A stretch of 64,000 bases of DNA from Thunnus maccoyii (lineage: Eukaryota > Chordata > Actinopteri > Scombriformes > Scombridae). Location of the stretch: positions 9,994,501-10,058,500 of the forward strand of contig NC_056539.1 in NCBI RefSeq assembly GCF_910596095.1, given 5' to 3'. The notes under the pieces are model-generated. The model saw only the letters and a list, made by a program, of their open reading frames with translations. It had not been told where the DNA came from and made no database searches. This document shows positions 8,576 to 44,200 of the stretch, in pieces (the stretch's first letter is position 1; every line of letters begins with the position of its first letter). Made by a program: the position numbers and the translations under genes.

Positions 8576-11500
8576 TCAGTACACCTTTATCCTGTCCAAC
8601 AGTGCTGTGGGATCTTGTAGGAAAGCTTGAAGGCTGTTCCTGTTAATGTATGCAGCCAAACCCACAACAGCAGCTGACAGAAACAGAAGCCACTTCAGTG
8701 ACCTCTTGGCTTTGGGCTCATCACAGGGCCTGGTCTGCATGGGTTGAGCCACTCTCTCCCACTGAGTGAGGATGGCCTGGCGGGCCCCAGCCCACTTTTT
8801 TGGCCCTCTGAGACGATATTGGTACGGGGACCCGGGACCGAACATCACATTCAGTCCCAGCCTGGGATCAGTCAGCATCAGCCTCGGGATGCTGGGTCGA
8901 ACCCCCACCAGCTCTGCTATCTCATCCATGTAGGTCATATAGTCAACCTGGATAGTGTGTCTCAGACTGGTGACATACCTGAAAAAGAGACACGAGTTGA
9001 ACATGTTGTGGATAACAAGATTGGGTACGTTTCAGACCCCACATCTGTAAATAATCTCAAAGTTGCACTGCAGAACCTTTTAGCCATGGTCTCCTGCTTG
9101 CACTGGACATCTTTAAGCATTGCAGCCACTGAAGGAAGCTTGACGCAGCCTGTTTAAAGGAGACATTGTGATACAGTGATTTGCTTTCTTAAACACTAAA
9201 TACTAAAAATACTGTTGCACTTTTTACAGAAGCTGTGCTACCTTTAAAGACACGTGTGGCCCATCTGGCCTGCATCTCAGAGATGGGCATGATGGCTCCC
9301 AGTGGCTGTACTAGACCAATGATAGCCAGAGTGGGGAGATCTAGCTCAGGAGGAAACACATACTTGTACAGAGATGCTTTGTTCTCAGACACTGAGACCA
9401 CATGTGAGGCCAGGAATGGAAAGGAAAACTTGTAGCCTGTGGCAAAGACCTGCAAGATAGGTAACTCATCTCAGTCACACACACTACTGGCCCTCTGCAC
9501 TGCTGTCTATGGAAGTGTAAGGAAGGAAGAGGAACAGACAAACTGTTAGTGTGAGTGGGTGAGTGTCTATACACATATAACCTACCACCAGGTCAACATC
9601 TTCCACTACACTTCCATCGTCAAACTCCACACTGGACCCTTGAAATCTGCGGATGTTGGGTTTCACCTGAACTGTTCCAGATAGGATGCGGTTAGGCAGC
9701 TCATCGTTCACTGTGGGATGTTGGCTGAACAACCTGAGATTTAAATTCAGACTAATGAATAAAGGATTACAATCACATAAATACTGCAAGCATTTGGATT
9801 AAAACAAGCCTAAAAGCATAAAGGCATGATGCACAGGAAGGACATTTTGATAATTTTATAACTGTACTAGAGAGCCATACTAATAGTGAGGCTATAACTG
9901 TAAAGTTTGTCTTAAGGCAGTGCTCAATGAGAGGCTATAAGTCATTAAAATGAAAACAGTTCTATCCCCTTTTGAGCATGAACATGCTCAACTGAGTCCT
10001 TGGTAACTTGCACATTATCACAAGATATAATGTAAGTAAAGTTCAAGTTTTGAATTATAGAATTATCGAATTATAGAAGGTTAATCATTTGGTGATTGTG
10101 CTCAATAAATTCACGCCAATCTGTCAACTGAATCATGAATCATATAGAGACCATTAATAGCTACAACAAATTTCATGGATAGATGTTGTCAAGATATCGT
10201 CTTCTGTAGTAACATGAGGCAATGGCAAAGGTACATACAAACCAACAAACTGACATTGCAATTCTTAGTTTTTGCCATTTGGGGGGTAAAAACATGCTAT
10301 AGTTCAAAAGCTATTTTTCCAAGCTACACAATGCTATAGCTTTGATAGATATAATTGTAGAAAACAGATGTGAACAGAGTAATACAGTACCTGTGCTTTG
10401 GCTTTAGATTGTACAGACTATGGTCAAATCTTTGGTTGAGTCTTTTCTCTCCCAGATCACAGAAAACACCAAAGGGAAGGATTTTCTTTACAAATGTCAT
10501 TGCCCGACTAAACAACAAATCAATGGGCAAGCCATTGTCCCCAACTCTGTTCAGAATCCAGGCTCCCCTTCGAGTGCTCAGGTAAAGCTGAAAACATGAA
10601 GAGAGGACATGGAGGTTGGATCAGCTGTTCTCGTTTAGTATGAACAGTTTGAAAAATTGAATATTAGTGATTGTAAATACATTTCATTTCTCCAGTGTGT
10701 AACTTTGTGGTTGTGTGCCACTGTCACCATTGTCTCTAGCCAGACAGCCAAACATCAGAAAGAAAAGTCTGACATTTTGGGAGATGCAACATGATGATTA
10801 TTATTAAGTGTCTAATATTGAAATTTACAGCTAAATATAGAAAAACCTACTGAGTGTCTATCATATAGGGAGATGTAAATAAGTGAATGGGGGGACACAG
10901 CCCGTCTGCAGACAGGCAGAACTTGGCATGACAGAGGTAGCTTCATATAGTATGTACAGATATGAGAGTGGTATCAATCTTCTCATCTAACTCTCGGCAA
11001 GACAGCGAATATGTGTACTTCCCAAAATGTTGAAGTATTCGTTTAAGAAAACCTTTCAAATGAATCCAGCAAATGTTCTGCAGCTATGTGGTCATAAATG
11101 TAAATATCTGCCCATCTAAATGTGAAAACAAAGGTAAATTTGCAATAACTCTCTGTTGTAAATGTGCTGAATATCTTGCAGAGTTACAACCTGGTTCAAC
11201 ACTGATTTACAGCATTTACTGGACTTGTATGTGCATGCAGATTTACACATGACTAGACTGAATGTGTTCAACTTTAAATTTACTTCCAGATAATTTGGTT
11301 CATTGTTGATTTGTTTTACTCATCGTTTGACTGTAGGGCCGCTCATATCTTTCTGCACTCTGCTGGTGGAATAAAATGTTATCGTGACTGACAAATACAA
11401 TGAAAATAAGAAAAAAAGTGGGTTTTTTTTGCATTAAGCATGTCAAATGTACAAACAATCCAAGCACATATATCTGCTCTGTATGTATGTAACTCAGTCA

Positions 11501-12738
11501 ACCCAACCTGCTTGGTGACTCTGCTCAGCTCCACTGCTATGTCTCCTCCAGAGTTTCCTATTCCAATCACTACAGCTTTTTTATTCCTCCACTCTTCAGG
11601 AGTTTTGTAGTCTCGACTGTGGAAGTACTTTCCTTTGAAAGTGTCAATGCCTGAAAAAAAAAACACAAATTTGTAACTGCTACACAAAGTACTTCTTTAT
11701 TTACTTACTGCTGCGAGAGGACTTTGATCCGTGTTTGAAATAGATACTACAGCATTGACCTAAAAAAATTTAGGTCAAGGTTGACAACATTATACTGACA
11801 ATACTGTTCTCTTTGGGTGGTGCCGCTCTCTGTTGATACAGGATTATGCAACCACGTTGTATATGGTTGCCTTTACAGACTCGACCATACCGTGTCAAAG
11901 GTTGTTTCTTAAATAACAATTTCTTCTTCATGTTGAAGTGAACTGAAGGTTTTTATAGCCTATAGGTGGTACCTGGGAAGTCATGGAGAGGCATGTTGGG
12001 GTGGCAGTGGTGTCCAATACAGATCATCACAGCATCAAATATATGTTTCTCCTTTTTGCCATCCTTGTTCTCTGTCTCAACATCCCACTGGCCTGAACGA
12101 GAAAAATCTGATCTCTGCTTCAGCTGCAAGACTTTGGTCTGTGTGATAGAAAAGCAGCAGCAGATAACAGTTTGTTGATAACAGTACAAAAGCCTTTCTT
12201 TATTAGGTAGGTCCTATTGAACTAACTAACATTTTATATTTGAGACTGATGTAAAAAAATAACGCATCATTTCAAAAACAGAAATAAAAATAAAGGAAGT
12301 GAGTGAAGCATTCTCACATTGAAACGTATGTATTTAGTGAGCTGGAAGTGATCAGCATACATCCGAAAGTAGTCCATGATGAGGGAGTTGTGCATGAAGT
12401 TGGGGAAGTGTGCGGGGATGGGAAAATCACTGAAACACATAGTCTCCTTGGAGGTGTTGATGATGACAGAGTGGTAGATGCTGGCCCTGTCTGGCTCGGG
12501 ATTCTCCTGCAATAAACCACAACAGCCAGGAAGAGATCGACTATTCATTCTCACTTATATACTCTGTGAGTGAAAGAAAGTCCAACCTGCACATAGTGTG
12601 ACCCACCCGAAACCTCCACAGTCCACCAATGTCATCGCTGCTTTCGAAGCAGACAGGCTCCAGCCCCTCATCCAGGCAGCACTTGATACAGGCCAGACCC
12701 GAACTACCTCCTCCAACCACAGCAACACGACGAGTCAT
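8576..12738 (-). CDS. FMO-A: flavin-containing monooxygenase, FMO5-like
   Basis: NADPH- and FAD-dependent ER monooxygenase that oxygenates soft nucleophiles (N, S) with O2; FMO5-type members can also act as Baeyer-Villiger enzymes. Nine coding exons joined by splice sites: 12738-12607, 12506-12318, 12138-11973, 11650-11508, 10587-10391, 9733-9586, 9449-9242, 9149-9077, 8978-8576, all GT-AG, giving 552 residues. Motifs seen: FAD site VVGGGSSG (residues 9-14 as GxGxxG), active-site Asn61 in IINTSKE, FMO signature [11 protein letters not shown] (167-177), NADPH site GIGNSG (192-197), FATGY (327-331) and a hydrophobic C-terminal anchor ([15 protein letters not shown]). The start is chosen because [11 protein letters not shown] matches the family N-terminus exactly. 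The 356-nt mammalian exon is split here into 148 and 208 nt. The gene looks intact. FMO membership is sure; the exact orthologue is not. Confidence 0.95.
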
Positions 12739-13253
12739 ACTTAAACTGCACGAAGGATGACCCAGATTAGTCTGAACAATGTTTTATCTCACAACAACAA
12801 CAACATTAATTAATGCACAACACCGCAAGTTGGACACGTTTCTCCTTTCATGGACTATACAGTGTTTATTAGGGCAATTACAGCTGATTTGCAGAATGTC
12901 TAATGCGCAGGTAAGAAGATGCATGCAGTTAACAGACAGCAGTCACACGATCTGGATATTTCGCTAAATGTTTGATCTGCTCCACAAAAGTTCAACACGA
13001 GTTTATGTGCCTTGCAGTTACATTTTGACGGACATAATAAAGGCTGTAAATTGCGTTGTCCGACCAAACTTCACTCTTGTTTGTTGGTTGGTCAATCTGT
13101 AGAGTCGCTGTCAACAATCTCCAGAGCGCAGCATTTATCAGTTAATCCAGCTAACCCTATTTATTTTACAGACTGTTACATATGCATACTATATAACGTT
13201 ACTGTAAAGTTACCATCGACTGTAACCAAGTTCATGCAGTTACACTTTCTTAC

Positions 13254-13330
13254 CTTTCGCAGTTCGGGGAGGTAAACGACTTGTTCGCGCTGCATGTAGA
13301 TATTGTATCTCAGCAGTGGGCGGAGTGTGA
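13254..13330 (-). other. probable 5' non-coding exon of FMO-A
   Basis: A strong donor CGAAAG|GTAAGA reads leftwards from 13254. The matching acceptor is GTGCAG at about 12745, a few bases before the FMO-A start codon. FMO-B, -C and -D show the same layout: one upstream exon ending in a strong GTRAGA donor. The 5' boundary is a guess. Confidence 0.45.
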
Positions 13331-14130
13331 TTGGGTAAAAGATTGTGCAAATGCATAAAACAGCCAAAACTAACCCATTTCTCTGTGGCGTCAGGGTTAC
13401 TTGAGGTTAGTGGAAAAGCAATCAGACAGACAGCGCCTCTGCTTGAAAACAACATGATGATCACTAGACTCAAAGGTAATATGAATCTGAATTTCTATAT
13501 TCAGTGAATGGAAGTCAGATAACACACTCACATTAAAAAAAAAAAAAGTTTTAAGTATAACCAACGAGCCAGCTTTCTTTACTTTGGACCATAGTTCATA
13601 TATACAATATAATAAAGATCACATAAAATAGGCTCAAGATACAAACATAGCCTCTCCCTGTCTAAAGAAATCAGCAGTTTCAAAACGTATGTACAGAAAG
13701 CAGAGCTGTGCAGAGACCTTTAGAGGAGCAAGTGCTCAAAATTAAAAAGGAGCACATGGAATAAGATTTTAAAACACCATACACCAACATAATTTACAGG
13801 ATGACCTGCTATGCTGTGTTATAATATGCTATGATTCGCTCTTTATTGTGTGTGTGTGTTTGTTCTGCTGGTACCTATTAAACATCACACAGCGGAGGGC
13901 AACTTTCTCTGCAGGCTGGACGAGGCACACTGAGAGCTGAGAACCATAATGACTACGGTGTAAATCATAAACTGTGAGCACAGAGGTTTTGTTTTTGTAA
14001 GAGTAAATGAATGGCAGGATTAGTTAAAGGCTTCAAGTATTTTTGTCTGAAGGACTCGGTTTACAGTGTTTGTCTGAATAACATATAAAACAATTTGCTT
14101 TCTAAAACAGAGACCCCTGAGTGTCAGGTA

Positions 14131-15263
14131 GGGGAGAACGGGGTAAATAGAGCCAGTGAGTAAAATGAGCCACCCCCTTTATCTAGGTAACCATAAACGA
14201 AAGTAATCATGTGATCACAAATTAATAAAGTAAAGTTCACATTACTCAATCCATCTTGGACAAGCACATGGAGAGAGTGGTCAGCAAAACAGAGCAAAAA
14301 AAAAGACTTTTGTCATGGAAAGTGAATTCATCACGTTACTAAAATTATCAGTCATAATTAAAATAGATACATTTTGGACATTATTATGTTAATTTAAGTC
14401 AGTGTAAACTACAAAACAAGGTCAAAACCTAGCATAACTGTGGATCTGAGCCACTGTAAGAAACAGTTTTGTCAAAATGGAGGTTGTGGGGTAAAACATG
14501 CCAGCGATGTTGGGGCAAGTTGAGTCAATGGATCAATTTACCCCCCAAACATTATTTTCTGATATTCTAGAGGCTAGAGACACTGTTCATGTTTGATCCC
14601 TGTTACAAGTGCTACAATGTTGATGAATAAATACCTAATTGTTGACTAATGTTAAGTTTAAGCCACACACAAACATGCTGTACATACAGACAGGTGACAA
14701 ATTAAAGGAAAAGCTGACATAAAGTGTCTTGGTAAGGCGTTGGGCCACCATGTGCCACCAGAACAGCTTCAATGTGCCTTGGCATTGATTCTACAGTCTC
14801 TGAACTCTTCTGGAGGGATGAACATCATTCTTCAAAAAGATAATCTTTACTGAAAATGTTGAGATAACATGTTGAACAACAAGACACAAACATGTTTTTA
14901 CTTAAAAGTACAAGTTTTTGCCTTTGTTAAATTGATGGCATTAATAAAGTTCAGAATTATTTTTGATTTTATAATTGATTTGTTTGATTTTGTGTGATTT
15001 TTATATCAGTATTTAATGGTAGCACTATTTACCTCATCCCCATGCTCATTTTACCCCTACCTTGGGGCAAATTGTGCCATAAGACTAACTTTTTTGATGG
15101 TTCATTGTTCTAAAACCATAATAATTAAATCATTTGTTTTCATTTCCATGGGTGCACAACAACCTGAGGTATATATAGTTACTATTATTTGAAACAAATA
15201 CACTTTCATTTTGCAGTAAAATCATCAAATGTAAGAAGTGGCTCATATTACCCCGTTCTCCCC
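14131..15263. mobile_element. non-autonomous DNA transposon with TA target site
   Basis: Terminal inverted repeats begin GGGGAGAACGGGGTAA at both ends; about 23 of 27 positions match. Each end is flanked by TA (14129-14130 and 15264-15265), the target duplication of Tc1/mariner-type elements. The inside repeats GGGGTAAA and TGAGCC-like motifs near both ends and has no open frame, so it is a 1.13-kb MITE-like passenger. It carries a second nested repeat at about 14690-14842. Superfamily is inferred only from the TA site. Confidence 0.75.
14690..14842 (+). mobile_element. nested fish repeat fragment
   Basis: The block starting ACAGGTGACAAATTAAAGGA and continuing with GGCGTTGGGCCACCATG...CAGAACAGCTTCAATG is a sequence I know as dispersed in many teleost genomes, probably a DNA-element remnant. 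It lies inside the TA-flanked element, so it arrived later or was captured by it. Confidence 0.5.
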
Positions 15264-15265
15264 TA

Positions 15266-16690
15266 CTGAACAATGGCTTGGACTCAAATGCAGACAGACT
15301 CAGTTGGCAAGTTCAAAAATCAGCCCTTTAAATCACAGCTGGGTCGGTTCACAGGTGATCAGTCAGCAAAACAAGAATATCCAAATCAGTTGGCTAAAGG
15401 CAAGGTCAAAGGCAAAAACAGGTCAGGAACTATAAGGCTCACAAGGGAAAAAGGCTGGAACGCTGTCACACAGGAACAAGATCAACTGGCACAGAAGGAA
15501 GGAAACACAGACTGTATACTCTGGGGGAGGGGAGACAATGAGACACAGGTGCAACACATCAGGGCAGGACAGGTAATCACACCAAAGGGAGACACACTAG
15601 GGTAGGAAGTGAAGGACCTGAAATGAGACAAGAGGTGAGTATTAAAATAAAACAAGTACAAGACAAAGAACACTGGGAGAAACAAAAGATAACTCAGCTA
15701 TCCAGCCGGGGCATGACACAGAGGTGAAAAGGCTTTAAAGACATTTAGCATATACATATTATTTCTATGCTTTTGATATGGTGACAATCTCTCTGATCCA
15801 GAGCATAACATGTAGCTTTTCAAATCCCATAATTACAAAGAAACTACAAGACAACAACTGAGATGGAAAGAGGAGAATCATTAAAGACTGTAAAATACGG
15901 CTAAAAATAATAGAGAGGCAGAGTTCAGAAGTAGTGCAAGAGACAGACAATATATGTTTAACAGCTCCAAGCAACACAGTAGAAAAATATTTATAAATCC
16001 TAGAACAACAAGTTCTGTATTTCACAAAATATTCTGGCTGAAATACTTTATTGGATGCTGGATCTGTAATTGTTCCAAAACGGAGATTTCACAGAACAAA
16101 GTCTCAACTTTATAGGATTCTTAAATATACATTTTTTGCTGGCGTCAGTTACTGAGGTCAACAACCTCAATAACAGCTTAAGAAAACATCATGTTAATAG
16201 AGTTTTTGTGTAGTGCTAGTATCTGTATTAGTAAAAGATCTACAAGTCCTTTAGGTTTTAATCTTTTTCTTTGACTACTTTTGTTAGTGGGGATGCCCTT
16301 TGGTTTACATGTGGAGAACAGATTGTGCTCTGGTAAAAAGTATTTACCAGAGCAGTAGGGTTATTAGGGAATAAGTCCTTGGAGTGAAGACTGTATCTCC
16401 CCAAAAAAAGAAAAAAAAAAAGAAAAAAAAAAAAGCTAGATTAAAAATGAGCAAGTTATGGTAGAAGAGGACATAAACTAAAATGTATTTTTCACAACTC
16501 AGCAACCAAAAAGGTGTATTTATTACTTGCTTATTAGTTTATAAAACATTAATAATTTATCAATCATTAATAAAAATCACTGGTTATAACTTTTGGACAA
16601 TTTTACAAATAGGCAGATCTTGCTTTGTCTCCATCTGCTGGTTTCAATGTAAAACGATCTAACATCTTACAGTTCTGTAGACCACATGAG
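15266..16690. other. spacer between FMO-A promoter side and FMO-B 3' end
   Basis: No gene recognised. It contains an A-rich run at about 16398-16434. An AATAAA on the minus strand at 16519-16524, about 170 nt past the FMO-B stop codon, is the likely FMO-B poly(A) signal. Confidence 0.55.
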
Positions 16691-16693
16691 AAG

Positions 16694-19600
16694 TCAACAG
16701 ATTTTCAGCTGCTGTTTACTGTACAAGAAGCAACACAGCAGAGCAGCACCTGAGAAACCCATGATGATGCTCAGCTTTGAAGAGGGTCTGGTCTCTGGTT
16801 CTGGTTCCACTCTAGTCCTGAAAGGCTGAACCACCCTCTCCCACTGAGTGAGAATGGCCTGACGGGCTCCAGCCCACTGACCCGGTCCAGTCAGACGGTA
16901 TTGATATGGAGTGCATGGACCCAGCAAAACCTGCAGTGCCAGTCTGGGGTCCCTCAGCAAGAGCCACAGTACGTTTGGTCGAACCCCCACCTGCTCTGCT
17001 AAAGAGTCCAGGTACGGGATGTAGTCTACCTGGAGGGGGTTACGCTCTGAGCAGGCAAATCTGTGAGCACAGGGAACAAAAAAAAAAAAAAACACAACAA
17101 AACACATTTTATATAACACTTCCTGACTCAACTTAGTTACAAATGCTTTACATAAAAGAAGATGTGAGAAATTTAAGAAGACATTGGTCAAGTAATGAAG
17201 TTATATACATAAATAATGGTAACACATGTACACACAAGAAGAAATGCACATTTTTATGTTTTCATCTAACTTTTATTTAAACAGGTAAGTTAATCAAAAA
17301 CAAATACTCATTTACAACTAGAACAGGTGGATCAAGAGCCTGCTGGTTACTGGATAAGGTTTAATAGTACACCCTCCTCAGAGTATATGTCACTGACTAG
17401 CCTATCACTTTTCTTAGATGGCTAAATTGTTGCGTTTTTTTTGTGCTCTGAATGTAACCCATGAGCAAATGTGTAGAGAAAACAAAACAAAACATGGACA
17501 GATTACTGTACAGTGAACAAATGGTTTTGGGCTATTTGAATTTTTGAAATTTCTTCAGGTCAGACTTGAGCCTTTATGGATTTCCCAAAAGCAGTTAAAT
17601 TATAACTATTATCAAAAAGCTGTTATCAAGGAGTGTGTGGACCAAATTTCAAGCATGGGATTTTTTTGGCACCACCTTTGGTTGATTTGAAGAGATATAG
17701 AAATGTTCAAAGTTTTTTTTCTTAAAGACCTAAAGATTTAGTTTACAGTTCATTACTGTCTGTAGCAGCAGGAGGTTTAAGTTGATCAGGATATGATGAG
17801 CAAACATATTTATCATACCTGGTGTATCAGGCCAAGAGGGGTTTGTACATAATAATGATAATAATAATAATAATAATAATAATAATCTGCAGTCACAACA
17901 ATAGATTAGATTTGTAGTCATCAGACAGTTTAATATGGAGCTTGCAGACTTTCTATAATTCAGCGTTACAATTATTTGTTACCTCTGATGCATTGTTGCT
18001 GTATCTTTCTCAATTTCCTTCCTCATGGTCTCCTCTGAGGGGAGGGTCGTTAAGCCTGCATGGAGAAAATTCAGTCAATTTAAAAAATACACAAAGGACA
18101 CCTAGAGAAGACTAATTTTTAACAGCCTTAGTCTTAAGACAGCTACTACTATCATCCCAGCTTCAAGTTTCAGTGTTCATGGTAAGACCACAAATGATAA
18201 TAGATCTTGTGTATCGATAAATGCCTTCACTATTAAGTAAGGTATCTTCTCAAACAGTCAGCACACCTATGAGCATAAAACTCAGTTTCTGTGTTGTACT
18301 TTACCTTTAAAAACCCTTGTAGCCCAGCGAGCCTGCATCTCAGCCAGAGGGTTGATGGCTCCGAGACCGTGGATGAAGCCCACCACTGCCAGCGTAGGTT
18401 GGGTCAGTCCAGGAGGGAACACATGCTTGTAGAGATGCAGCCTGTAATCACATTTAGCCTGCAGAGCTGAGGGCAGGAAGGGGAAGCTGTAGTTGTACCC
18501 TGTGGCAAACACCACTACATCCACCTGTATGACATGCACAGAAAAGTCATGAATATTTAATTAACTTGTGATTTTTTGCATTTTCATAACCAAATGATAA
18601 TAATAACTAAAAAAAAACCAAAAAAAAAAAAACAAAAAAAAAACTAAAGAGGAAACGCCATTTCCACATTATGTGACTTTGTTGACTCACAGTCTAATGA
18701 ATGCACAATATAAACACCTTGTCTATAATGCTCCCGTCAACAAAGACCACACTGGAACCACAGAATTCCTTCACATTTGGTTTCACCTGAACACGACCTG
18801 AGATGATCCGAGCGGGCAGGTCGTCATTCACAACAGGGATCTGTGCAAAAAAACTGCCGACAGGACATTAGAGCTCCATAAGTGACCCATATATAAGGAG
18901 CGTTTCAGAGGCAAACATACAGTGAAGGCTGGAATAGGTACACGAGTGCAGGACAGAGTAGAGGTCAGTTTGTTCTTTGTAGTCTCAATTAGATCAGAAA
19001 GTTAAAGTTGTATTTCACAGCTTGCCTACAGGGGTCACACTCCCTTATTACAAATGAAGAAAATCACATGAACAAAGTAATAAGTAGTTCCTGCAAGCAT
19101 CTCATTTACCACCATTTCAAAAAGGTCTTTTGTATTCTTCTTGTTTAGGCATTTAAACCTGCACACTCTGTACTCTAGCGTCACCACCAGATCAAATGTT
19201 TTACTTCTACACAAAATAATAGTGAAGAAATACTGAAGTGTAGTGCATGGCAGTCAGAATTTTAAAATATGGATACATAAAAAAACTGAAAAGTCTGTGT
19301 TGTGAGCAGACTTTCAGCTGCCATTTATACACAAGAAACAATAAAAAGAGGACAGAACTACAGGACCCTCAGGACTAGCATTAAATTACTGGTATGGCTA
19401 CACATGTGCATTGCAGCCTGAGGCACTGTCAGGACTTCCAGACTTGTAACAATCCCTTAATGGACTCTTTGAAGACACAAGAATGTTAATATGATCTTGT
19501 TACCCATGTTTTGGTTTCAGGCCATATAGTCTGTGGTCAAATGCTTGGTTCAGCTTCTTCTCCAACATGCTGTTGATCCATGAGGGGAAGAGCTTCTTTA

Positions 19601-21370
19601 TCATCACATCCACTCGAGAAGTCCCAACAAGGTCAGTTGGGAGCCCCCCCGGTCCTACACGGCCGACCACCCATGCTCCACTCCTGGTGCTGAGGTAAAC
19701 CTGCAGGTCCGGTCAGCACAGGGAGGATTCACGTGCTCATCATTTATTTTATTTTCAGCATCACAGTGTTTTTAAAAATACAATTAAAAGTGTCATTTAC
19801 TTGATATGAAACAAAGACAAAAGTACAGAAACTGTTTAGTTGTGCACCTTCTCAGCCACTCGACTGATATCCACAGCAATATCACCCCCAGAGTTCCCAA
19901 TCCCAATCACCACCACTCTTTTCCCCTGCAGACCCTCAGCATTGCGGTATTCCCAACTGTGGAAATACCTGCCTCCATAGCTCTCTATACCTGAAATGGA
20001 ATAAGACAAAAGACTAAATAACGTGTACTATTTTACACATAGCCTTAGTTGTACCCCGATTAAAGAGCACTGAGAATGTGATGACTGGAGGTGAAATAAT
20101 GTATATCATGATTCCTGGTACCTGGGAAGTCTTTGAGCGGCAGGTGAGGCTGGGTGTAGTGTCCTGTGCAAACTATCACTGCATCAAAAACATGAGTCTC
20201 CCTCTGACTGTCTCTCCTCTGTGTCTCCACCTCCCACTGGCCTGTCACAGCAAAGTCTGGACTCTGCCTCACACCGACCACGGTAGTCTGAGAAGGACGT
20301 TGATATTTGACATGTGAAATCAAAAAAATTGAAACAACTTCACTGTCATATAGCTGTATTCACACATATAACTGAAAAGTTTGAGTAATAAAAGAAAGAA
20401 GTGTTTTGCAAACTGACAGTAACAGAAAATATATATTGTTATTATATTCTTGTCCTTTTGGAATGCACTGACAGTAAAGGGTCATATTCTTCAGTTTTCT
20501 CCTTTCTGTTACATATAGAAAAGGTAACTGATCATATTACAGCTTTTACAAATAAACCTGAGGGTTACTAACCTGGAAGTGAATGTGCTGCAGCAGTTTG
20601 AATGCCTGAGCATAAAGTCGCAGGTAAAGCAGCACCTCAGAGTGGTGCATGTTGTTGGGGAGCTCAGCTGGAGGAGGGAAGTCACTGAAAGACATCATCT
20701 CTTTGGAGCTGTTGATGATCACCGACTGATAGATGTTGGCTCGTCCAGGCTCTGACAGCTCCTAAAGTAGGGACGATACAGATAATGATAGACACATATT
20801 TCACTTTGCTGCTTGTGGGCAATTAAACTGTTACAAGTACAGTATATCATTATACATTATATCATCATGTCCCAAATTTCAGAGGACTTTTAAAGTATAA
20901 GACCATTGGTCAGCAACTTGCCAAATCCAAAGTATAATATTTTTAGTAATTCCAAAAGTGTCAAAAAAGTTCCAAAAGTTGAGATGTCTAACTTCCTGCT
21001 TGATTTCCATAAGGGGGTTATGGTCATTCTTTTGAAAGTTGAAAAGTTTAATTTCTGATTAATTTCATGTATATTTTATCAGTAGAAAACCCAATGAATG
21101 TTGCTTTAAATTGTTAATTTTCAAAGAAGCATTTATTTAACATGCTGTATGCTGCAGTATAAGGATGCATAATTCAAAACATCAAAGATAGAGTATCAAT
21201 TTAGTGACAAATCACCAGATAAAAACATTGTCCCTCACCTTAAATCTCCACAGACCACCGATATCATGGCTGCTCTCAAAGCAGGTGGTCTCCAGACCTT
21301 CATCCAAACAGGCCTTGATGCTGGTCAGACCGGACGGCCCTGCACCGATCACTGCCACCTTCTGAACCAT
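16694..21370 (-). CDS. FMO-B: flavin-containing monooxygenase, FMO5-like
   Basis: Same enzyme class as FMO-A (FAD/NADPH monooxygenase, ER membrane). Nine coding exons: 21370-21239, 20761-20573, 20287-20122, 19990-19848, 19700-19504, 18853-18718, 18524-18305, 18055-17983, 17060-16694; all introns GT-AG; 540 residues. Seen: FAD site VIGAGPSG (9-14), Asn61 in IINSSKE, signature [11 protein letters not shown] (167-177, first Phe replaced by Tyr), NADPH site GIGNSG (192-197), FATGY (327-331) and a short hydrophobic C-terminal anchor ([16 protein letters not shown]). The ancestral 356-nt exon is split 136+220, 12 nt away from the FMO-A position but the same as FMO-D. The start [11 protein letters not shown] fits the family. 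Intact by eye. The relic exon at 30523-30654 is closest to this gene. Confidence 0.95.
17849..17886 (+). repeat. (AAT)n microsatellite
   Basis: About 12 trinucleotide units in the last intron of FMO-B. Confidence 0.9.
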
Positions 21371-30522: not shown

Positions 30523-30654
30523 CTAAAATCTTCACAGACCACTAATATCATGGCTGCTCTCAAAGCAGATGGTCTCAAGACCTTCATCCAAACAAGCCTT
30601 GATGCTGCTCAGACCAGAGATTCCTGCACTGATCATTAACACCCTCTGAATCAT
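30523..30654 (-). pseudogene. solo FMO exon-1 relic
   Basis: Exactly 132 nt, the length of coding exon 1 in all four FMO genes. It translates as [18 protein letters not shown], then [18 protein letters not shown], closest to FMO-B. The FAD motif GAGPSG has become SAGISG, the Trp codon of GLWRF is TGA, the following Lys codon is TAG, and the donor GTGAGG is now TTGAGG. The similarity continues a little way 5' of the start (GGAGAGGAAGCA is shared with FMO-B). It lies 1.1 kb downstream of FMO-C in the same orientation, and I see no partner exons. Confidence 0.9.
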
Positions 30655-30655
30655 G

Positions 30656-31775: not shown

Positions 31776-34700
31776 TTAGCCAGTGAACCAGATGTCCTTG
31801 AGGTAAATCTTGCACCTGTCCAGAGCCTGAGCTGCACCCTGCAGCACTGGAACAATCTCATTTTTAGACAGAAGCACAGCCATTATCACAGTTCCTCCAA
31901 ACATGAGCAGCCAGGGAGAAAAGAGGACAGATGGTGTGGTCTCTGGTTCTGGTATTTCTCTGGTTCTGAAAGGTTGCGCTACTCGCTCCCACTGAGTGAG
32001 GATAGCCTGGCGGGCACCGGCCCACCGTCCAGGCCCATTGAGACGATACTGATATGGAGTGCAGGGACCACAGAGGACCTTCACCCAGAGCACAGGATCT
32101 CTCAGTAGTAGTCTCAGGAAGTTAGGTCGAACCCCAACCTGTGATTAAAAGTCTGTCACAATGGTTGTGTCTTTTACATATGGTAACATACTTTTACATA
32201 GAACTGAACTGAACTAACCTCATCAGCCATAAAATCCAGGTAAGGGATGTAATCTACCTGGAGATCAGCCTGTCGTGGGCAGGGATAGCTGAGAAAACAA
32301 AGAAGAGGAGCAGATTCATATGTCATTATTCACGATACAAATTTTAAGTATAAAAGCTGAAATTCTACATTTTCCACAGACAAGCCCTGAATGATCTGGC
32401 TGCACCATCTAAACAACATCAGCGTCTAAAGCATGTGTACCTCTTCATGTTTCTTTTCCTCTCAGACTCAATGACAGCCAGCATTTTCTCCTTGGGCGGA
32501 AGACGGCTCAAACCTTAAAGATAATACAGAACAAACTAACACCTCTTGCTTCTTAATCCTGTGTGTGTGTGTGTTAAGCTCACAAATGTTTACCTGCAAA
32601 GACCTTAACAGCCCACCGCGCCTGCATTTCTACTATGGGCATGATTGGTCCTTTTGTCTGGAAAAGACCCATGACGGCCAGTGTGGGGTGTTGTAGAGAA
32701 GGAGGAAACAGTCTCCTGAAATTTGAAAAAACTGTAAGGTGATCCTTAGAAATGATTATGTCATATTACAATATAGGTGATAGTCCTATAATTAATACAG
32801 GAGTATCCAACACTCTTTCCAGCATGTACTTACTTGTACAATGTCAGCTGTCTGTGAGGCCCCTCAGACAGAGCTGGAGGCAGGAATGGGAAGTTTCCAT
32901 TATAACCTGTACAGAAGACCATAACATCAATGTTCTCCTCCACGGTACCATCTTCAAATACAACTCCAGAGCCATTGAACCTTTTCAGATTAGGTTTCAT
33001 GACTAGCGCCCCCTGAAGGATTCGGCCAGGAAGGTCATCATTGATCAGAGGCCTTTTGTCCAGAACTCTGGGAAAGAGAGGAAATGATGAATAGATTCAA
33101 TCAAATGCATCTTGCTTCAAACATTATATCACGTACAAAATGACACCTTTGTATCTAATTGTCTGCACCACTGACACCCTGCTAGTATGGACGGAAGTCA
33201 TTGATGAAATTTGCAGACTTTGAGCATGAGCCTTTTCTTACAACGTAATTAATGCAGATGAAATATCTATGTATCTATGGATCTAGCAATTAAAATTAAT
33301 ATTTTGACGTAAATAGTTGAGAGTAAGTGACTAGAGTAACTAAAAGATAAGTATTCTGTGCTTGTTCTTTATGTTCATGTGTGTAAACAGTAAAGTTATG
33401 GAGGTATATTGAAGTATACAGTATATGTAACTCTGCCCTTACAAATCCATACCTGCTCACTCTCAAATGTTTACTTGCAGACTGTGTAGCGATCTGAATT
33501 TATTTTGTGCTCTCTCAGATCTTTTGTCATCAATGTACTTCCATGTAAAGGCACAATCTACATCTGTAAAATAAAGGGCAGTCCCACCAGCAAACCCTTA
33601 AGTTAATTGTTCTTTTGACAAGAGACTGACACTTAAGAGCTCGTTCTAAACAGTTTTCTAGTGCTGTTAGCAGCTTGCTTACATTAGCATTTTTTTAGTT
33701 ATGCTAGTGACATGGCTCTAGGGATGGCAATGTCGGTTGGTCTGTCATTTGGCCAGTCCACCACTTTGGTCAAGGCTGAGATCTCAGCAACTATTGGATG
33801 GATTGTGGTAAAATTTGGTACAGATGCCCCCCTCAGAATTATTATTATGTTGTTTACCCCCCCTGAGTTTTCAACTAGCACCCTCATCCAGTACTTGGGT
33901 TTATGACCAAATACCTACAAAACTAAAGACATTCCCACCAGCATCAATATTTGTGTTGTTTCTGTTGTGTAACTAGTGAATGTATCCATCAATAAACTGT
34001 AAAAAGGGGCCTGGGATCATGAGGTAGAGAGGAACAGACTCTCAGATAAGTCATCCAGGGGGAAATGGGTCACCTGTGTCTTGGCTTCAGGCCATACAAT
34101 ATATGGTCGTATCTGTGGTTCAGCGCTCTCTCTACTGCCCAGTTGACCAGAGTTTTGGGGAGAAGCAGCATGAGGATATTGTTGAGCCTGGTGATAGATG
34201 TCATATCCAGGGGAAGACCACTGTTGGACATCCTGCCAATCACCCAAGCCCCCTGCCGTGTGCTGAGAAATGTCTGTCAGAGATAGAAACGAAGGAGTGT
34301 AACATTCTCATGAACATACCGAAATAATTTTACAAGTTAAAAATGTTGCATAATTTTTTGCACCAACAAACGGTTTCTGTATGATTAGAACATTTATCGA
34401 TAAGTAGTAGCAATAGTAAAATAAAAATCTTGCATAAGAATAAAACCAAAAATGAATGGACTGTGTGAAAGCACATTTGTCATCTGTCTCAATTAAGTCC
34501 CTTGGGTTCTGCTGCCAAAAACACTGGATACAATACTTCTCTACTCTTTGTTTGTCTCACCTTCTCTGCAGATCTACTAATCTCTGCAGCAATATCTCCT
34601 CCAGAGCTGCCAATGCCAACCACCACCACCCTCTTTCCTCTGCAGGCATCTGCGTCTTTATATTCCCAGCTGTGAAAACACTTTCCAGGAAACGTCTCAT

Positions 34701-35542
34701 GTCCTAGAGAGATACAGATGGTGCAAAGGAAAAAAGGTAGATTCTTGCAAGAATGTGCCAATGTAAAGTAAATCAACCCATTAAAATCAAATTCTGTCTG
34801 ACTTGAATGACAATATATGCTTGACATATTTGAAAAGTGATGTCTGACCTGGAAAGTCTGACAGGGGTAGGACAGGATGGGTGTAGTGGCCTGAACATAC
34901 TAGAACTCCATCAAAGACATGCGTCTCTTCCTCTCCGTCCCTGTTAATAGTCACTATATCCCACTGACCAGACACAGAGAAATCTGGTCTTTGTTTAACA
35001 CTCCTCACTGTGGTCTGAACAAACACACACACATTAATAATCCATTAAGAACTTTACATCACAGTATGCTATAGAAACATGTGAAAAGACAGTGACACTC
35101 CTGGCATGATGAAAAAGGAATAACCTGGAAATTAATGTATTTGAGCAAGTCAAAATGTTCAGCATAGAGCCTGTAGTACTGCAGGAGCTGAGAGTTGTGC
35201 ATGTAGTTTGGGTAGTCAGCAGGCATTGGAAAATCGCTGAAACACATCATCTCTTTGGAGGTGTTGACCACCAAAGAGCGGTAGATGCTGGATCGCTCAG
35301 GCTCAGGAGAATCCTGTGGAAACAAAGGATACTGAGACATAGAGCTGACATTTTAAACAAATATGAAACTGACAACAAGATAAATATGTGTATTCTCTTT
35401 AAAACTGCACCTTAAATCTCCACAGGCCGCCAATGTCATCAGTGCTTTCAAAGCAGACAGGCTCCAGGCCCTCATCGACACAGATCTTGATACAGACCAG
35501 ACCAGAACTGCCCGCTCCAACCACTGCCACACGTCGAACCAT
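31776..35542 (-). CDS. FMO-C: flavin-containing monooxygenase, FMO5-like, divergent motifs
   Basis: Same class as FMO-A. Ten coding exons: 35542-35411, 35313-35125, 35014-34849, 34703-34561, 34273-34074, 33067-32834, 32715-32594, 32513-32441, 32288-32219, 32138-31776; GT-AG throughout; 563 residues. Seen: FAD site VVGAGSSG (9-14), Asn61 in VVNTSKE, signature [11 protein letters not shown] (167-177), then NADPH site GIGSSG where the usual Asn of GNSG is Ser, and FCTGY (328-332) where the family has FATGY. The C-terminus carries a hydrophobic segment ([15 protein letters not shown]) and a longer polar tail. The 356-nt exon is split 234+122, unlike its neighbours, and the last exon has an extra intron between ADE and VGVRPN. 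The frame is open throughout, so it should be a working gene, perhaps with altered cofactor handling. Confidence 0.94.
33690..33960 (+). repeat. dispersed fish repeat in FMO-C intron 5
   Basis: The text CATGGCTCTAGGGATGGCAA ... CAACTATTGGATGGATTG ... AAATTTGGTACAGA ... TTTATGACCAAATACCT is a very common teleost repeat that I recognise from memory. A second copy of the same family lies in the opposite orientation at 35610-35950. Confidence 0.65.
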
Positions 35543-36248: not shown

Positions 36249-36598
36249 AAGTGCAGTGTGTAGGATTTAGTGGCATCTAGGTTGCAGATTGCAACAAACT
36301 GAATACCTCTTCCAAGCATGTAGGAGAACCTGGTGAACTGGTGGCTGCAAAACCCACGAAAAATGCAAAACGCCCTCTCTAGAGGCAGTGTTTGGTTTGT
36401 CCATTCTGGGCTACTATAGAAACATGGCGGTGCAACATGGCAGGCTCCATGCTCCCTATGTAGATATAAAGGGCTCATTCTAAGGTAATGAAAACACAAT
36501 TCTTATTTTCAGGTGATTGAAACATACTTATGAATATTATATTCCATCTCTGCCAAGTCTGTTCCACTAGATGCCACGACATTCTACACACTGCACCT
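36249..36598. mobile_element. 350-bp MITE with TTAA target site
   Basis: Left end AAGTGCAGTGTGTAGGATTT and right end reading inward AGGTGCAGTGTGTAGAATGT form inverted repeats that extend into GTGGCATCTA. TTAA flanks both sides (36245-36248 and 36599-36602). TTAA duplications mark piggyBac- and Kolobok-type elements. No open frame is inside. The element lies between the probable 5' exon and first coding exon of FMO-C, so it is intronic. Confidence 0.85.
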
Positions 36599-36972
36599 TT
36601 AACCTGAAGCATGCTGCAGAAGCTGAGTGTTAGACCACTTTAATAAATCAGAGACAAATTAAATGAGTAGTTGAAACAGTGACGTTTTCTCTTGTCTCTT
36701 CCCTTCAACACCCAAGCACAGAGTAACAGGATTCTTTCCAGCAAAGCCAAGTTTTGTGTTTTTATAACTCCCTAAGAACAGTTAAAAAATGAAGCACTGT
36801 CAGTTATCTCAAATCATTAACTATTTTAAAACTCATAGGAATATTGAGGAACTAAATTAGTTTACAAGCACAGAATGTGTGTCCCTGCATGTAAAGTGAC
36901 CCATTATTGGTAGGGGGCAATCAAACAGGTCTCTTATTGTTGAAGTCTGAAATATGTGTCAGGAACTCTCAC

Positions 36973-37030
36973 CTTCTTCTTCCTCCTTTAAGCTGATCCT
37001 GACGTCCTGTGCAGCTGCGATCAGATGTTA
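36973..37030 (-). promoter_or_regulatory. probable 5' non-coding exon of FMO-C
   Basis: Donor GAAGAAG|GTGAGA at 36973, facing the FMO-C start 1.4 kb away, where GTTCAG|TA precedes the ATG. The arrangement is the same as in the other three FMO genes. The transcription start is not resolvable. Confidence 0.4.
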
Positions 37031-37039
37031 AACAGCTTG

Positions 37040-38895
37040 TAAATTCATATGAGCTGAACTGTTGCTTATCAACTAATCAGTTAAACAGTACTGCAGGGGA
37101 GGGACTTTAACCCTGTTTGGTGGAACGGAAAATACTCCAAATATCCTGCAGCAGAATGCTGTGTTCTGCAAAACAACAAGAGACTGCAAAGGAAAGTTAA
37201 AGTAGAAGAGGAAGATTCTGTTTCCTAACTTTGATCTGGATATCTAACCATCCTGATGAATAAACATCATATAGCATTATATTTACTTCATAAATTATTC
37301 ACTCATTATTGACCTGATTGATACAATTATTAATATACATGGAACAAGTCCTCCCTCACAGTAGAACTGAAGGTAAAACACATTTACTATAAAGCAATTT
37401 TGACACATGAACTCACATTCCAACTCATCATATACATAAAATATAAAGAACACAGTATACCTGTGCAGGTCTTCCTGACTGCCTTCACCCTGCCTGAGGA
37501 ATGGATGCTGGATAAAAATGGCCACCTAGTGTTCAAAAGGATTTATATCATGTTTCCAAAGCTGATTCAATTAAATTTTTATACATATCATTATTCAGTT
37601 TTGGATTGTAACAATATTTAGATTTACTGCATTATGTTTATTATTAAATTGAATTATTTCATTATCTATCACATGCTGAAGTTTTCACGCTTTTGCTTTT
37701 TCGTCATTTTTCTTTACAGACATAATAAAAGTAATTAAAGTTAGTTAAGAAGCAACTCCTCACCATCTCACTTCTAATAAATCTGTACAGTGTACGTGTC
37801 TCCAGCTTCATGTACCTCAAAACACAGACTCTCAGGTGGTTTAGTGTGAAATATAAGGTGGCTGGTCCCATCCCTTTGTTTCCTTTGTCTTTTTTCACTG
37901 TCCAAGTGTAAAGATGGAAAATGAGCAAAGTGTTGAGTTTCCCTGTTCCACTCAGTAGGAAGTAACAACAAATGTGATCAATGTCTGCATGGTCCAACTT
38001 AGACAAAGGAAATTGACACTTAATGATAACTGCTATTTACACTATACCGATTTGATACAATGGGTTACACAGCATAAAAGGGCAAAAAGATAATGAACTG
38101 CACTTCATGCATGGACCTCAGTATTCCTATACCGTTTAAAAATTCCCTTCTTTGTGTTTCATTGGACAGTGTTGTTTTCAGTTTTTCTCTGAGCTTTAGT
38201 GGATATATGAACTCAGAGTTGGACATTTTGTACTAAAAGGCCGTAGGTCTATAAGATTGATTTGACTGTCTCAAGACTGAAGCGACACACTAGCCCCAGG
38301 TGAACATCAAACTGCACAGAATGAGGACGGTGTATTTTGTCCCCCATCACTTACCTTGGAGTCGCATTAGGCCCATAAGCAGAGAGTAAATTAATACAGT
38401 GAGTAATAACTCACTGTATAATGCGCATACTGTATGAGCATGTATTGTTTCAAAACAGACTTAAAAAAATTTGACCACACAGTATGGTTACTGTTTCTAT
38501 ATTTGGCAAGAGTTGTCTGGTGAATGCACACCAGAGACTAGGTGCTGGTTACAGTAATAACATAATTTAAAGCGATGACTGCACACTAAGCCAGCTGTAA
38601 GAAAGACCAAGTGCAGTCAACACATTCGTTATACAATCATAAAATAATTTGTTTGCATTCATCTTCTATTCAATGCCATTTAAGTAAAACGTGATTATTT
38701 GATTTGGTGAACATGTTACCTGCTAAAATATCACTTTGAACAGAGAAAAATAGTGGTCATCACTGTATTTTAATGGCAACAATGTTGCCAGTATATTACT
38801 GTAAAACTGGTTACAGTGACAGTCATGATCACTTGCTGGTGACAATGTTACCAACTGCATTAAACGTGCATTACAGTATGTGACACACAATTATG
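37040..38895. other. spacer upstream of FMO-C
   Basis: AT-rich, no gene or repeat that I can delimit. Confidence 0.55.
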
Positions 38896-38899
38896 ATTA

Positions 38900-39480
38900 T
38901 AATGAACAAGGTATCCACATGTTTAGTTGCATTCAAAAGTTTTACAGCATTTAAGGGTCACGTGGCCTCGATTGCTCGGTCATGCCGGTTTGTCCTGTCT
39001 GAGCATGCAGCACAACTCCTACTACAGGCTCTTGTAACATCACACATTGACTACTGCAGCTCCTTACTGGTAGGCCTGCCCACATGTACGGTCAAACCTC
39101 TGCAGATGATCCAGAAGGCGGCGGCATGTCTGGTCTTTACCAGCCCCAGAACAGCACAACAAACATATCCCTCCACTGGCTCCCTGTTGCTGCCCACATC
39201 AAAGTCAAAACCCTGATACTCACTTACAAAACAGGAACTAAAACAGCTCCCGCCTACCTGAACTCCCTCATTCAGGTCTACACTCATCCAACTCACTACG
39301 CTCTGCCAGTGAATGGCGCCTGGTACAAACACCACAACAGGGCCTTAAGTCACCGGCCAGACTCTTCTCTTCTGTAGCTCCCCGGTGGTGGAACAAGTAA
39401 CCAAACTCTGTTTGATTCAAAGACTCCCTCTCAATCTTTGACAAAAGACTAAAGACCCAGCTCTTTCGCAAACACCTCTG
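38900..39480 (+). mobile_element. L2-like LINE fragment (reverse transcriptase C-terminus)
   Basis: Plus-strand frames read VLSEHAAQLLLQALVTSHID, then YCSSLLVGLPTCTVKPLQMI, then QKAAACLVF; after a frame change, SLHWLPVAAHIKVKTLILTY and TAPAYLN; then LFRKHLCTDG near the end. This order is typical of fish L2-like (Maui) ORF2 C-termini. Frame changes show it is dead and 5'-truncated. Confidence 0.85.
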
Positions 39481-39599
39481 CACTGATGGATTGAAGGAAA
39501 AAAAAATCTACTTCTATACAATCTATGCACACTATGCATCGCCTCTGTACACTGCCTGTTGGCACCTATGTCCTATCGCACTCAAACTTAGCTTTATGC

Positions 39600-39669
39600 T
39601 AGCGTGTATTGAACCTGTCCACTTGTCAGACACCTGACGTATGACCCAAGTACCGAGTGCTCAGATACA
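39600..39669 (-). pseudogene. FMO exon-5 scrap
   Basis: The run from TTGTCAGACACCTGACG to CGAGTGCTCAGATACA (39623-39668) matches the start of FMO-D exon 5 (43194-43235) with two substitutions and one 5-nt gap. Weaker similarity continues left through TGTCCACT and CGTGTATTG. It encoded the [18 protein letters not shown] region. Same orientation as the FMO array; it lies directly right of the LINE fragment. Confidence 0.8.
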
Positions 39670-40094
39670 CATGCACGAACAAGAGAGTATAAATTGTAAA
39701 GCATATTGTCTCCTTCACCTGATTCAAGATCATGCTGTATATCCTCCATTGTAGCATCCCTGCACTGGTTTGCATCACATTTGAGATTTCATTACAAAAT
39801 AGTGCTGATTATATATTATGGTCTGCATAGTTTAGTCCATATTTTTCTGTATTGGACTCACAGGTTCCTGCTCAGAAACCCATAATCACAGCTTCTGTCA
39901 TAAAACGTCTGTCTGCCGGTTAAGAGAGAGGACCAAAGGTTATCTTGCTGTGAGAGCACTGAAACCCTTCTGGATGTAATTTGCTCGGCCAAAAACAAGT
40001 ATCTTCTTGCTTTTTTGATGTCTAGACTTATAACCTTCTTGATTTTTTTGCACTTTGCATTGTATGGGTTTGCTTCTCTCTATTGCAACTGTGC

Positions 40095-40097
<3 letters not shown>

Positions 40098-40164
<67 letters not shown>
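40098..40164 (+). repeat. (AT)n microsatellite
   Basis: About 33 dinucleotide units. A shorter (TA)n lies at about 40896-40914. Confidence 0.95.
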
Positions 40165-40168
<4 letters not shown>

Positions 40169-41230
40169 ACAAGTTGTTGAGTATTATTTGGTCCAATAGG
40201 ACAATAATATTTTTCTGTGGTATTGATTTGTTTGAGCAGTGACTGTATGTGACACTGTAACCAGACTGTAAGTGAAGCTGTTTGTGTGGCGTTAACTGGC
40301 GTGCACGACTCCACCTGGATAAATGATTGACAGCATGCTGCCTCCCAGACTGTGTGCCCAGTTTAATTTGCAGACCATGTGAAAGTGCAAAGCTGTCTCT
40401 TCTATCACAGGGTGTGTAAAAAAAACTGTTTCCACATACACAGGGGTGCATTTAGTGGTTTGGGGACCCTGAGACTCCTTTGCACTTTGCTTACTTTTTG
40501 TATATCACAAGTTTCATCACTAGGGGACTCACTAAGAGGAGGACATCAGGGAAAGATAGTGTGCTAATGTGGAACCGGTTGGACTGTTGTCTATATATAT
40601 ATATTTTTTTTTAACTTATTTTGTTTCAGTTATGTGTAAGTAAAGTCTTCAGAAGGTTAATCTCAAATAACTTTTATTTAATGTATAGTCACTTGAACAG
40701 TATGCCTAATATTCAATTATGATTTCAATAAGGCTTGAGACAAGATGACACTCAGATGAGACGTTTAATATACAGCATATATTGTTGTATTCACACAGGA
40801 AAAACACATTCACATTCACTGTTACTGAAAGTTAAATATGACCTATATAAGAATGGTTAGCTTAGTTATTCTTGACCTTTAACAATTCAGTAAATCTATA
40901 TATATATATATATACCCTCAAACTCTCAGGCCTCTGGTGGACATGTTGATAAAATATGTAAACCAGGATGTGTTACATTTCCTTCATGACATATTTTGTT
41001 CATGTAAAATAGTTGCATTTGCATTTGAACTTTTTTTTTCACCCGACAAGGCTCTGCATTTAAATAGACTAACTACATAGATACAGTGATATCTCTTGCA
41101 TTAATAATCATTCCAACAATCACAAGCCAAACAGCAGTATACTGAACTAGAGGATCTAGAAAGAGTGAATTTGGTATTTAGTTTGTGTGTTTGAGAAATC
41201 TCTTCACATCATTTGACTGATGCCGCATGT

Positions 41231-44200
41231 TCAGACTGTTTGTGGGCGGAGGTTGGACAGGAGGGTGGGGATGGCAGTCGGGTTGCGAGTATGGATGTAG
41301 TGGACGGCAGCTCCTCCGGCCATGACGGTCAGGCTGAACTTGAACAGGCGGCCAGTGATGGAGGCCTCTGGTTCCTCCATCTGGAAGAGACAGGAGGGAG
41401 AAGATTACGCTTACATTTGGCTAAATGGTCAGACACTCATACTTATACAGTACTCCATGTTCAGATAATGTAGGACTATACAGTATGTATATTTAACATT
41501 ACATGTAAAGATTATGTACAACATTCATTTCAGACCTTTCTGGTTTTTAGGGGCTGGTACATGCGATCAAACTGGGTGAAGATTGCTCTGCGGGCGCCCT
41601 CCCATCTCCCTGGTCCCATCAAGCGGTACTGGTAGGCTGTGACAGGTCCCCACAGTACCTTCTTATACAGGGGGTAGTCTGTGAAAAAGAGCCAGGGGAG
41701 ACTTGGCCTCACTCCGATCTCTCCAGCTATGTTGTCCATGTAGGAAACAAAGTCCACCTGCAGCGGTGTCAACTTTGACACAATGTAGCTGTGGGGAGGA
41801 TATCAGAAATGAATGTAGGATTACACTTGGCCAATAGAGTATTCTTAATTTGTTTCCTGTCCATGATTGAAAGAATTTAATTCAGAGAGTTTAGATTGCT
41901 GAGAGGATTGAGAGAGGATATGTGAGTGTGAGCATTCATTTTCTCTGAAAGGACCTAACAGAAAAAGGGACAACGCTGGTTGCAACAAATAATAAGAAAC
42001 AGAAATATTGAGAGCTTTACCTTTTCTCAATGTCCTTGGTGTCATTATCAACAGCCTTTATCATGGCCTGATTTGAGGGCAGCTTTTTATGTCCTGAAGG
42101 GCAAAAGACAGAGCGCTGAGGTAAATACTGTAGACTGACATGTGCCCGGAAAGAATCGAGACTAGTAGCAGGTGATACATTGTGTATGTTTTTCGGATAT
42201 GAGCTAAAATGCCATTACGATGTGATAACCATTCAACCTTTTTGTGTGTGAGTATTGCTAATTGAACCACAGTGACATGCTGACATGAAACAGACATGTG
42301 CCCTCACCTTTGAAGACACGTGTGACCCAGCGGGCCTGCATTTCAGCCTGAGGCATAATGGCTCCAAGGGCATGGATGAAACCCACCACAGCCAGAGTGG
42401 GATGCTCCATGTTGGGGGGAAAGACATGCTTGTACAGACCCATACGGTGTCCAGACTTGTACATAGCATTGCTTGGCAAGTAAGGGAAATCATAGTTGTA
42501 ACCTGTAGCGAACACAATCGTATCCACCTGTAGCACAGACAGATAAAGAGATAAGTTAGAGATTTTAGATTTAGCTTGAAGTGTAAGAAGACTCTTGAGG
42601 GGATCCACACAGTTCTCTGACCTTTTCCACAATGCTGCCATCATCAAACACCACAGTGGAGCCACGGATCTCCTTAACGTTTGGTTTGATGACCACTGAC
42701 CCAGCCAGAATCTTTAAAGGCAGGTCGTCGTTGATCACTGGGATCTGACTGAAGAGCCTGTAGAGGTGAGGGGCAGCGGAGGAGGGGAAAGTGGACGATA
42801 AGGGAGAGTTTAAGATATTTTGATGACAATGACAGAATGAGAGTGGAGCTGTACATCCACAGATTAGACACACCTTTCATCATAATGCACAGTGTAATGA
42901 TTGACTTTTTTGCCTGCACACTTCAGCAACAATGGGAGAATATACTGTGATACTATATTATACTGTGTGGTCCTGAATGCATTAGTATAAACCATAATGT
43001 TTGTATTAAAAGCATGAGGAAACAGAAATACCTTACCTGTGTTTGGGTTTGAGGGCATACATGGTGTGGTCGTACATGGCATTGAGTTTTTTCTCGCCAA
43101 TCCAGTTGAGGATGTTCATTGGCAACAGCTGGAACAAGATGTGGACAAAACGTGTGTTGTACTTCATGTCCACTGGCAGGCCGTTGTCAGACACCTGACG
43201 GATGACCCAGGCACCACGACGAGTGCTCAGATACATCTGTGGAGCCCAGAGAAGAGTGTAGGAGAGAGATAGGCACAAAAACAACATCAATGAATGATCC
43301 TGAAGATGTCTTGTGATGTCTTAAAAGTCCAACTGAAATCACATTTTAAATGTATTGTTAATAGTTCCGTATTATTAGAATGAAGAAAATATGTCTTTGG
43401 AAAAATATCTGAAATGCTCTTTTTTGTCTCAGCTGTGTGTCAGAGTCTGCTTCATTGACATTTGCTGGCAGTTTACCGGTGTTACACCATACGGAACGGG
43501 AGACAAAGTAAACAAAGTGCTGTAGCTACAAGTCATGGACAGACAGTGTTTTGCTAACAGGGATTTTGAAGAGTGATGACCAAACCAGCATCTAATGGGA
43601 CCAAAGAAACATTTTCAGGTATGTTTTCATGCAGTTTAATGTGCTGCAACTGAGTAGTTAATTAGCTATCTTGCCTGCTAACTGACGTTAGCGGTGCACT
43701 TTTCACCAGTGAATGTTTGTTTGGCGGCTCGGTCAACTAGCTAAGATTCAGGACAAGACATGTATTCATGTTTGTAAGTTAGATAAGAAGGAGACTTTAG
43801 TAGTAAAGCTAATGCAGGTTGTTGTTCAGAGTCTGTGGCTCTTGCGTTGTGTAGCAGGATGCTATCAGGCTCAGTGTGACCATTTGCTCTGCCCATGATT
43901 GATGCCACATTAACACTTTATTCAAGATTTGATTTGCTGCATCGAAATAAGGAGTCCACCTGCTCCAGCTACGTAGATGGATAACAGAACGGCATCTCAT
44001 CGAAATAATGCAAAACTAGAGGGCACAATCATGAAATTAAAGAATTTCTCTTATTCTCGTATTTCTCTTATTATTTACAGAGCAGATATGTCTGCTATAG
44101 TAAAAAAAAGTTTTAATTTCAGTTAAGAGAATGAGTGCAATCACAAAGAATGTCCCAACCTCCTCTGCAACTCTGCTGCCCTCCACAGCAATGTCACCTC

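Follow-up and report, generated by a model that had tools for sequence, protein, structure and literature searches.

A single ancestral FMO exon split at three places in four old tandem paralogues of a ray-finned fish, probably by separate intron gains

Vertebrates rarely gain introns, and how they do so is unsettled. Comparable systems have been described in ray-finned fish. In slc26a1 and slc26a2 of Eurypterygii, several extra introns entered coding sequence that ancestrally had few exons (the available text of PMC12357937), and the serpins of ray-finned fish carry short GT-AG introns of 68-178 nt, several per gene, with the length of the sequence around them unchanged (PMC2746811, in its accessible part). 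Here we describe a similar pattern in four detoxification genes of the flavin-containing monooxygenase (FMO) family, named A to D, that lie head to tail, all on the minus strand, in a 64,000-nt stretch of the Thunnus maccoyii genome (contig NC_056539.1, positions 9,994,501 to 10,058,500; hereafter the window), which belongs to contig C7 of an assembly of 782 Mb and 54 contigs. Each copy keeps a coding unit of exactly 356 nt and interrupts it with a short intron, at one of three places, and this is best explained by separate intron gains in old paralogues. The extra introns are 80-193 nt long and, as in the serpins, leave the length of the surrounding sequence unaltered. The serpin work concerns another gene family and compares orthologues, and the slc26 gains were dated over 81 vertebrates, whereas the FMO case comprises tandem paralogues of one genome and is undated.

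The exon models (Table 1) were located by tblastn, after which exon edges were set at GT (or GC)-AG sites with an unbroken frame. All four spliced models are free of stops, and the proteins of FMO-B and FMO-D align over their length, placing them beside A and C, which have Pfam matches, among proteins with an FMO-like domain. In FMO-D the GC donor of intron 1 lies at 45101 (-) and reads AAG^gcaaga, and the alignment gives FMO-B (16694-17060, -) a shorter C-terminal tail than A, C and D have. Seven introns are common to the four genes, with the same phase and the same column in the alignment (28 shared introns in total), and delimit common coding exons of 132, 189, 166, 143, 197-200, [356] and 73 nt, followed by the last exon. 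Human FMO3 has eight coding exons, numbered 2 to 9, of which exon 4 ends at c.484 and exon 5, c.485-627, is 143 nt long (PMC4190592, in the part available). The pattern of A-D matches it: the corresponding boundaries fall at 487 and 630, offset by one extra codon, and the 143-nt exon is present in 4/4 genes. The coding exon counts of A, B, C and D are 9, 9, 10 and 10, against the eight of human FMO3.

The difference lies in six extra introns at five positions. The first-pass annotation had claimed that the 356-nt total is conserved in every copy and that the unit is split after 148 nt in A, after 136 nt in B and D and after 234 nt in C; the exon models bear out both statements in all four genes. 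In FMO-A numbering the B/D site lies between residues 321 and 322, the A site between 325 and 326, and the C site within residue 354. The human exon is likewise 356 nt long, a figure for which a literature search gave no confirmation. Two further introns, in the last exons of FMO-C and FMO-D, had been overlooked. Left unspliced, the FMO-D last exon would stop at KTRKV, while splicing gives a tail that aligns with those of A, B and C.

Table 1. Positions of the FMO genes, their 356-nt units, the extra introns and neighbouring features in the window.
Feature	Position	Strand	Description	Support
FMO-A	8576..12738	-	9 coding exons, 552 aa	exon model; Pfam FMO-like PF00743 6.4e-233
FMO-B	16694..21370	-	9 coding exons, 540 aa	exon model
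FMO-C	31776..35542	-	10 coding exons, 563 aa	exon model; Pfam FMO-like PF00743 1.2e-217
FMO-D	41231..45233	-	10 coding exons, 553 aa	exon model; GC donor at intron 1
Unit of FMO-A	9733-9586, 9449-9242	-	148 nt + 208 nt = 356 nt	
Unit of FMO-B	18853-18718, 18524-18305	-	136 nt + 220 nt = 356 nt	
Unit of FMO-C	33067-32834, 32715-32594	-	234 nt + 122 nt = 356 nt	
Unit of FMO-D	42757-42622, 42527-42308	-	136 nt + 220 nt = 356 nt	
Extra intron of FMO-A	9450..9585	-	136 nt; after 148 nt of unit; codons 325/326	
Extra intron of FMO-B	18525..18717	-	193 nt; after 136 nt of unit	
Extra intron of FMO-C	32716..32833	-	118 nt; after 234 nt of unit; phase 2, within LYK	
Second extra intron of FMO-C	32139..32218	-	80 nt; last exon, after 70 nt; MADE^VGVRP	
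Extra intron of FMO-D	42528..42621	-	94 nt; after 136 nt of unit, as in FMO-B	
Second extra intron of FMO-D	41381..41535	-	155 nt; last exon, after 253 nt; TRK^MEEPEA	
FMO exon-1 relic	30526..30654	-	lone; in-frame stop TGA	nearest FMO-B exon 1, 77% aa
PAP2 phosphatase gene	55079-51256	-	apparently split by intron of ~2.9 kb	PAP2 match, second piece only
Exon	60170-60460	+		AhpC-TSA match
Open stretches	38884-39374	+	resembling end of a reverse transcriptase	by eye

The placement of these introns was assessed by scoring every in-frame, stop-free donor/acceptor pair for similarity to four reconstructed ancestral mammalian FMOs and with splice matrices built from the 28 shared introns of the same four genes. 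The pair assigned to the unit intron ranks first of 171 candidates in A, of 89 in B, of 58 in C and of 85 in D, as does that of the FMO-C last-exon intron among 96. None of the six intron lengths is divisible by 3. The second-best pair in FMO-A uses an in-frame tandem donor 3 nt upstream, whose use would lose one Val, and that for the FMO-C unit intron uses an in-frame acceptor 3 nt downstream. Scored leave-one-out, the donors of the 28 shared introns range from 1.8 to 12.0; those of A (1.0 bits) and B (1.5 bits) fall slightly under this range, and those of the other four extra introns lie within it. Judged from the DNA, the extra introns of all four genes are probably removed in earnest, and the FMO protein products would be ordinary, because splicing takes out the extra introns and leaves the reading frame unchanged.

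A direct comparison can be made with human FMO3, for which Table 1 of PMC5471399, the part of that paper used here, gives three exon-7 variants: c.850 at g.27086, Ser310Leu at g.27165 and Gly376Glu at g.27363. By our own arithmetic on that published table, the genomic steps of 79 and 198 equal the coding steps between c.850, c.929 and c.1127 (second codon base assumed). The segment c.850-c.1127 is colinear with the genome and therefore residues 284-376 are free of introns, leaving all three unit sites vacant. The residue numbering of FMO-A is in register with reconstructed FMO3-6 over the compared region, and the three exon-7 introns are absent from human FMO3 as this table records it. Quail FMO3 variants at residues 319-353 are all assigned to exon 7 in the available portion of PMC3840012, so that the exon spans the A and B/D sites, the span ending one codon before the C site. 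The tetrapod comparison covers the three unit positions in human and two of them in quail, the two last-exon positions lying outside it.

Amino-acid identity between A, B, C and D is 53.2-59.4% in pairwise comparison, and their Nei-Gojobori synonymous divergence (dS) of 1.73-3.56 is saturated. As the four reconstructed mammalian FMO subfamilies are equally divergent (55-62% mutual identity), the array is not recent, contrary to its earlier description. Since the array is old, the occurrence of several intron changes is also less surprising than had been held. The epithet 'unusual' loses force as well, since intron gains in ray-finned fish have already been published. In a tree without the bacterial row, the four genes stand apart from the reconstructed mammalian FMOs, with B, C and D united (96/95) and B paired with D (84/90); when a bacterial outgroup is included, A groups with the mammalian forms (92/94). 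All 33 matches listed by a PF00743 search of the same genome (E <= 0.001), a list that is not exhaustive, fall inside the window, so that this list offers no other FMO gene as an internal outgroup. A partial FMO-A pseudogene on contig C12, absent from that list, came up in a DNA search with A's intron.

We consider it likely, with a probability of roughly two in three, that old FMO paralogues gained these introns separately. The four genes would have inherited seven coding introns from their common ancestor. Later the two longest ancestral coding exons would have received spliceosomal introns in separate events: one insertion in A (148), one in the ancestor that B and D share (136), two in C (234 and the last exon) and a single one in D (the last exon). 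On the favoured tree this requires five events. On this view the fish lineage would have gained the extra introns, with no loss of them in other lineages, and the 136 introns of B and D are probably one shared event. The independence of the C intron, which the first-pass annotation had asserted, is supported. AG^R occurs at 4/6 extra junctions against 4.7% of coding positions, and MAG^R, to which 2.9% of coding positions conform, at three of the six and in 20 of the 28 shared introns.

Several observations weigh against this account. The A, C-234 and, strictly, C-last junctions do not fit MAG^R. While approximately unbiased (AU) tests reject A+B (p-AU 0.004) and A+D (0.017), they do not reject C+D (0.115) or B+C (0.134), which makes the B+D pair insecure, and with the bacterial outgroup no order among B, C and D is settled. 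The C-234, D-136 and D-last introns each gave a single match in a genome-wide DNA search, which returned no source sequence, and a footprint of tandem duplication gave no signal, with 4-10 of 30 matches at the extra introns and 4-14 at the shared ones. The outgroups for intron presence are human and quail, both tetrapods, and the gene models come from DNA alone.

A's intron has one other copy in the genome, 88% identical, inside the C12 duplicate of FMO-A. This partial pseudogene (locus L009, 4698-6265) covers the region of exons 5 to 7 with introns, its frame broken, and it retains A's extra intron at the same place with the surrounding exon-intron order kept. A's intron therefore predates the duplication. 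The copy also suggested a mobile element, an idea that was dropped because it is part of the duplicated FMO-A piece. Unusual conservation of the intron between gene and pseudogene (119/134) was likewise considered and set aside, as the comparison with intron 5 (507/617) gave p = 0.07. None of the extra introns matches significantly at a second place in the window.

All five extra-intron positions lie in the two longest ancestral coding exons; the random-placement probability of about 0.02 was noticed post hoc, and we place no weight on it. A more daring view, which we regard as unlikely, is that in this fish lineage new introns enter these two long exons by preference, and that different paralogues were independently hit at the neighbouring positions 136 and 148 of the conserved VDxxVFATGY segment. 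If so, the locus would serve as a naturally replicated experiment on the convergent insertion of introns.

The 12-nt spacing between the A and B/D introns could also be read as intron sliding, in which one intron was gained near 136-148 in the ancestor of the fish genes, both its splice sites moved by 12 nt in one lineage, and C lost it and gained its own. The spacing is a multiple of 3, as expected of sliding in PMC2891723, the available text of which attributes 9 of 31 near intron pairs in Drosophila to this process, one of them at 12 nt. That text also looks for cryptic splice sites at the same distance backed by conserved residues, and for likeness between the two introns. In A, B and D the Val codons 322 and 326 begin with GT, which gives each place a possible donor, and A has its tandem donor. 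However, sliding demands an extra loss, because C lacks both introns and yet groups with B and D (96/95), whereas the same source asks that no intron-less intermediate separate the two positions, and on the favoured tree C is one. A grouping of A, B and D without C is mildly rejected (p-AU 0.035). Codon 325 reads GTG, GTG, ATG and ATT in the four genes, with no AG in any copy for a rightward acceptor shift. When three introns are dropped at random on the 356 nt, some two of them fall 12 nt apart or less in 19% of draws (22% without the outer 30 nt). PMC7730772, in the part available, describes sliding in mammals as very rare, if real at all. The introns of A and B, and of A and D, show no similarity (25 and 6 of 100 shuffles score as high), but this is uninformative because only 1/42 pairs of homologous shared introns is similar. 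The spacing is thus weak evidence of sliding. Of the two options first raised, 'sliding by four codons or separate gains', we favour the second and hold the first to be quite improbable.

About as improbable is that all or most of the positions date from the ancestor, with selective loss in paralogues and tetrapods, an idea that draws on the restriction of the outgroup genes to tetrapods. Had the 136 and 148 introns both been present in the ancestor, its sequence would have contained a 12-nt exon between them; more events are needed than for separate gains on the favoured tree, and the tabulated human FMO3 segment lacks all three exon-7 introns. That some junctions are mis-assigned, with true splicing elsewhere or one copy not expressed, is very unlikely: the weak donors of A and B, the second-best sites of A and C at a distance of 3 nt and the splice required at an FMO-D end that otherwise reads coding and then stop would allow it, but the assigned unit pair is the best of all in-frame candidates in 4/4 genes, every gene retains the 356-nt total, and A's intron recurs in the duplicate on C12.

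The remainder of the window holds a lone relic of an FMO first exon, further exons of which were not found in the window, and open stretches that by eye resemble the end of a reverse transcriptase without long terminal repeats (non-LTR). The PAP2 phosphatase gene resembles PLPP6; mammalian PLPP6 is a single-exon gene, and the window gene may be a further intron difference. The exon with the AhpC-TSA match is presumably peroxiredoxin-6-like, and in the human genome PRDX6 is close to the FMO cluster. A scan of viral contigs for FMO relatives found none.

With its seven fixed and six extra introns, the array of four genes provides its own internal controls, and the same ancestral exon has been hit at three places. 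If dated in other fish, it would enlarge by one family the small set in which several gains are documented, and it would test repeated hits at neighbouring sites. Tandem FMO genes are known from the hadal snailfish, which has five fmo3 copies, four of them in tandem (PMC8118300, in its available text). Searches of an open-access library, including the accessible parts of PMC9893644 and PMC8118300, yielded no paper that treats the intron positions of fish FMO genes. The melanocortin receptor genes MC2R and MC5R offer a close parallel, in that linked genes of compact fish genomes took several insertions. Their junctions are mostly MAG^R; unlike FMO, these genes are otherwise largely intron-less, and one position is common to both receptors (PMC3151243, as far as its available text goes). 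Drosophila near intron pairs lie less than 32 nt apart, as do the A and B/D positions at 12 nt, and their coexistence is unlikely; they were compared in orthologues on a known species tree, whereas the FMO genes are paralogues (PMC2891723, same text). Set beside these systems, FMO looks like one more gene family with the intron turnover known from ray-finned fish, and not a new kind of event.

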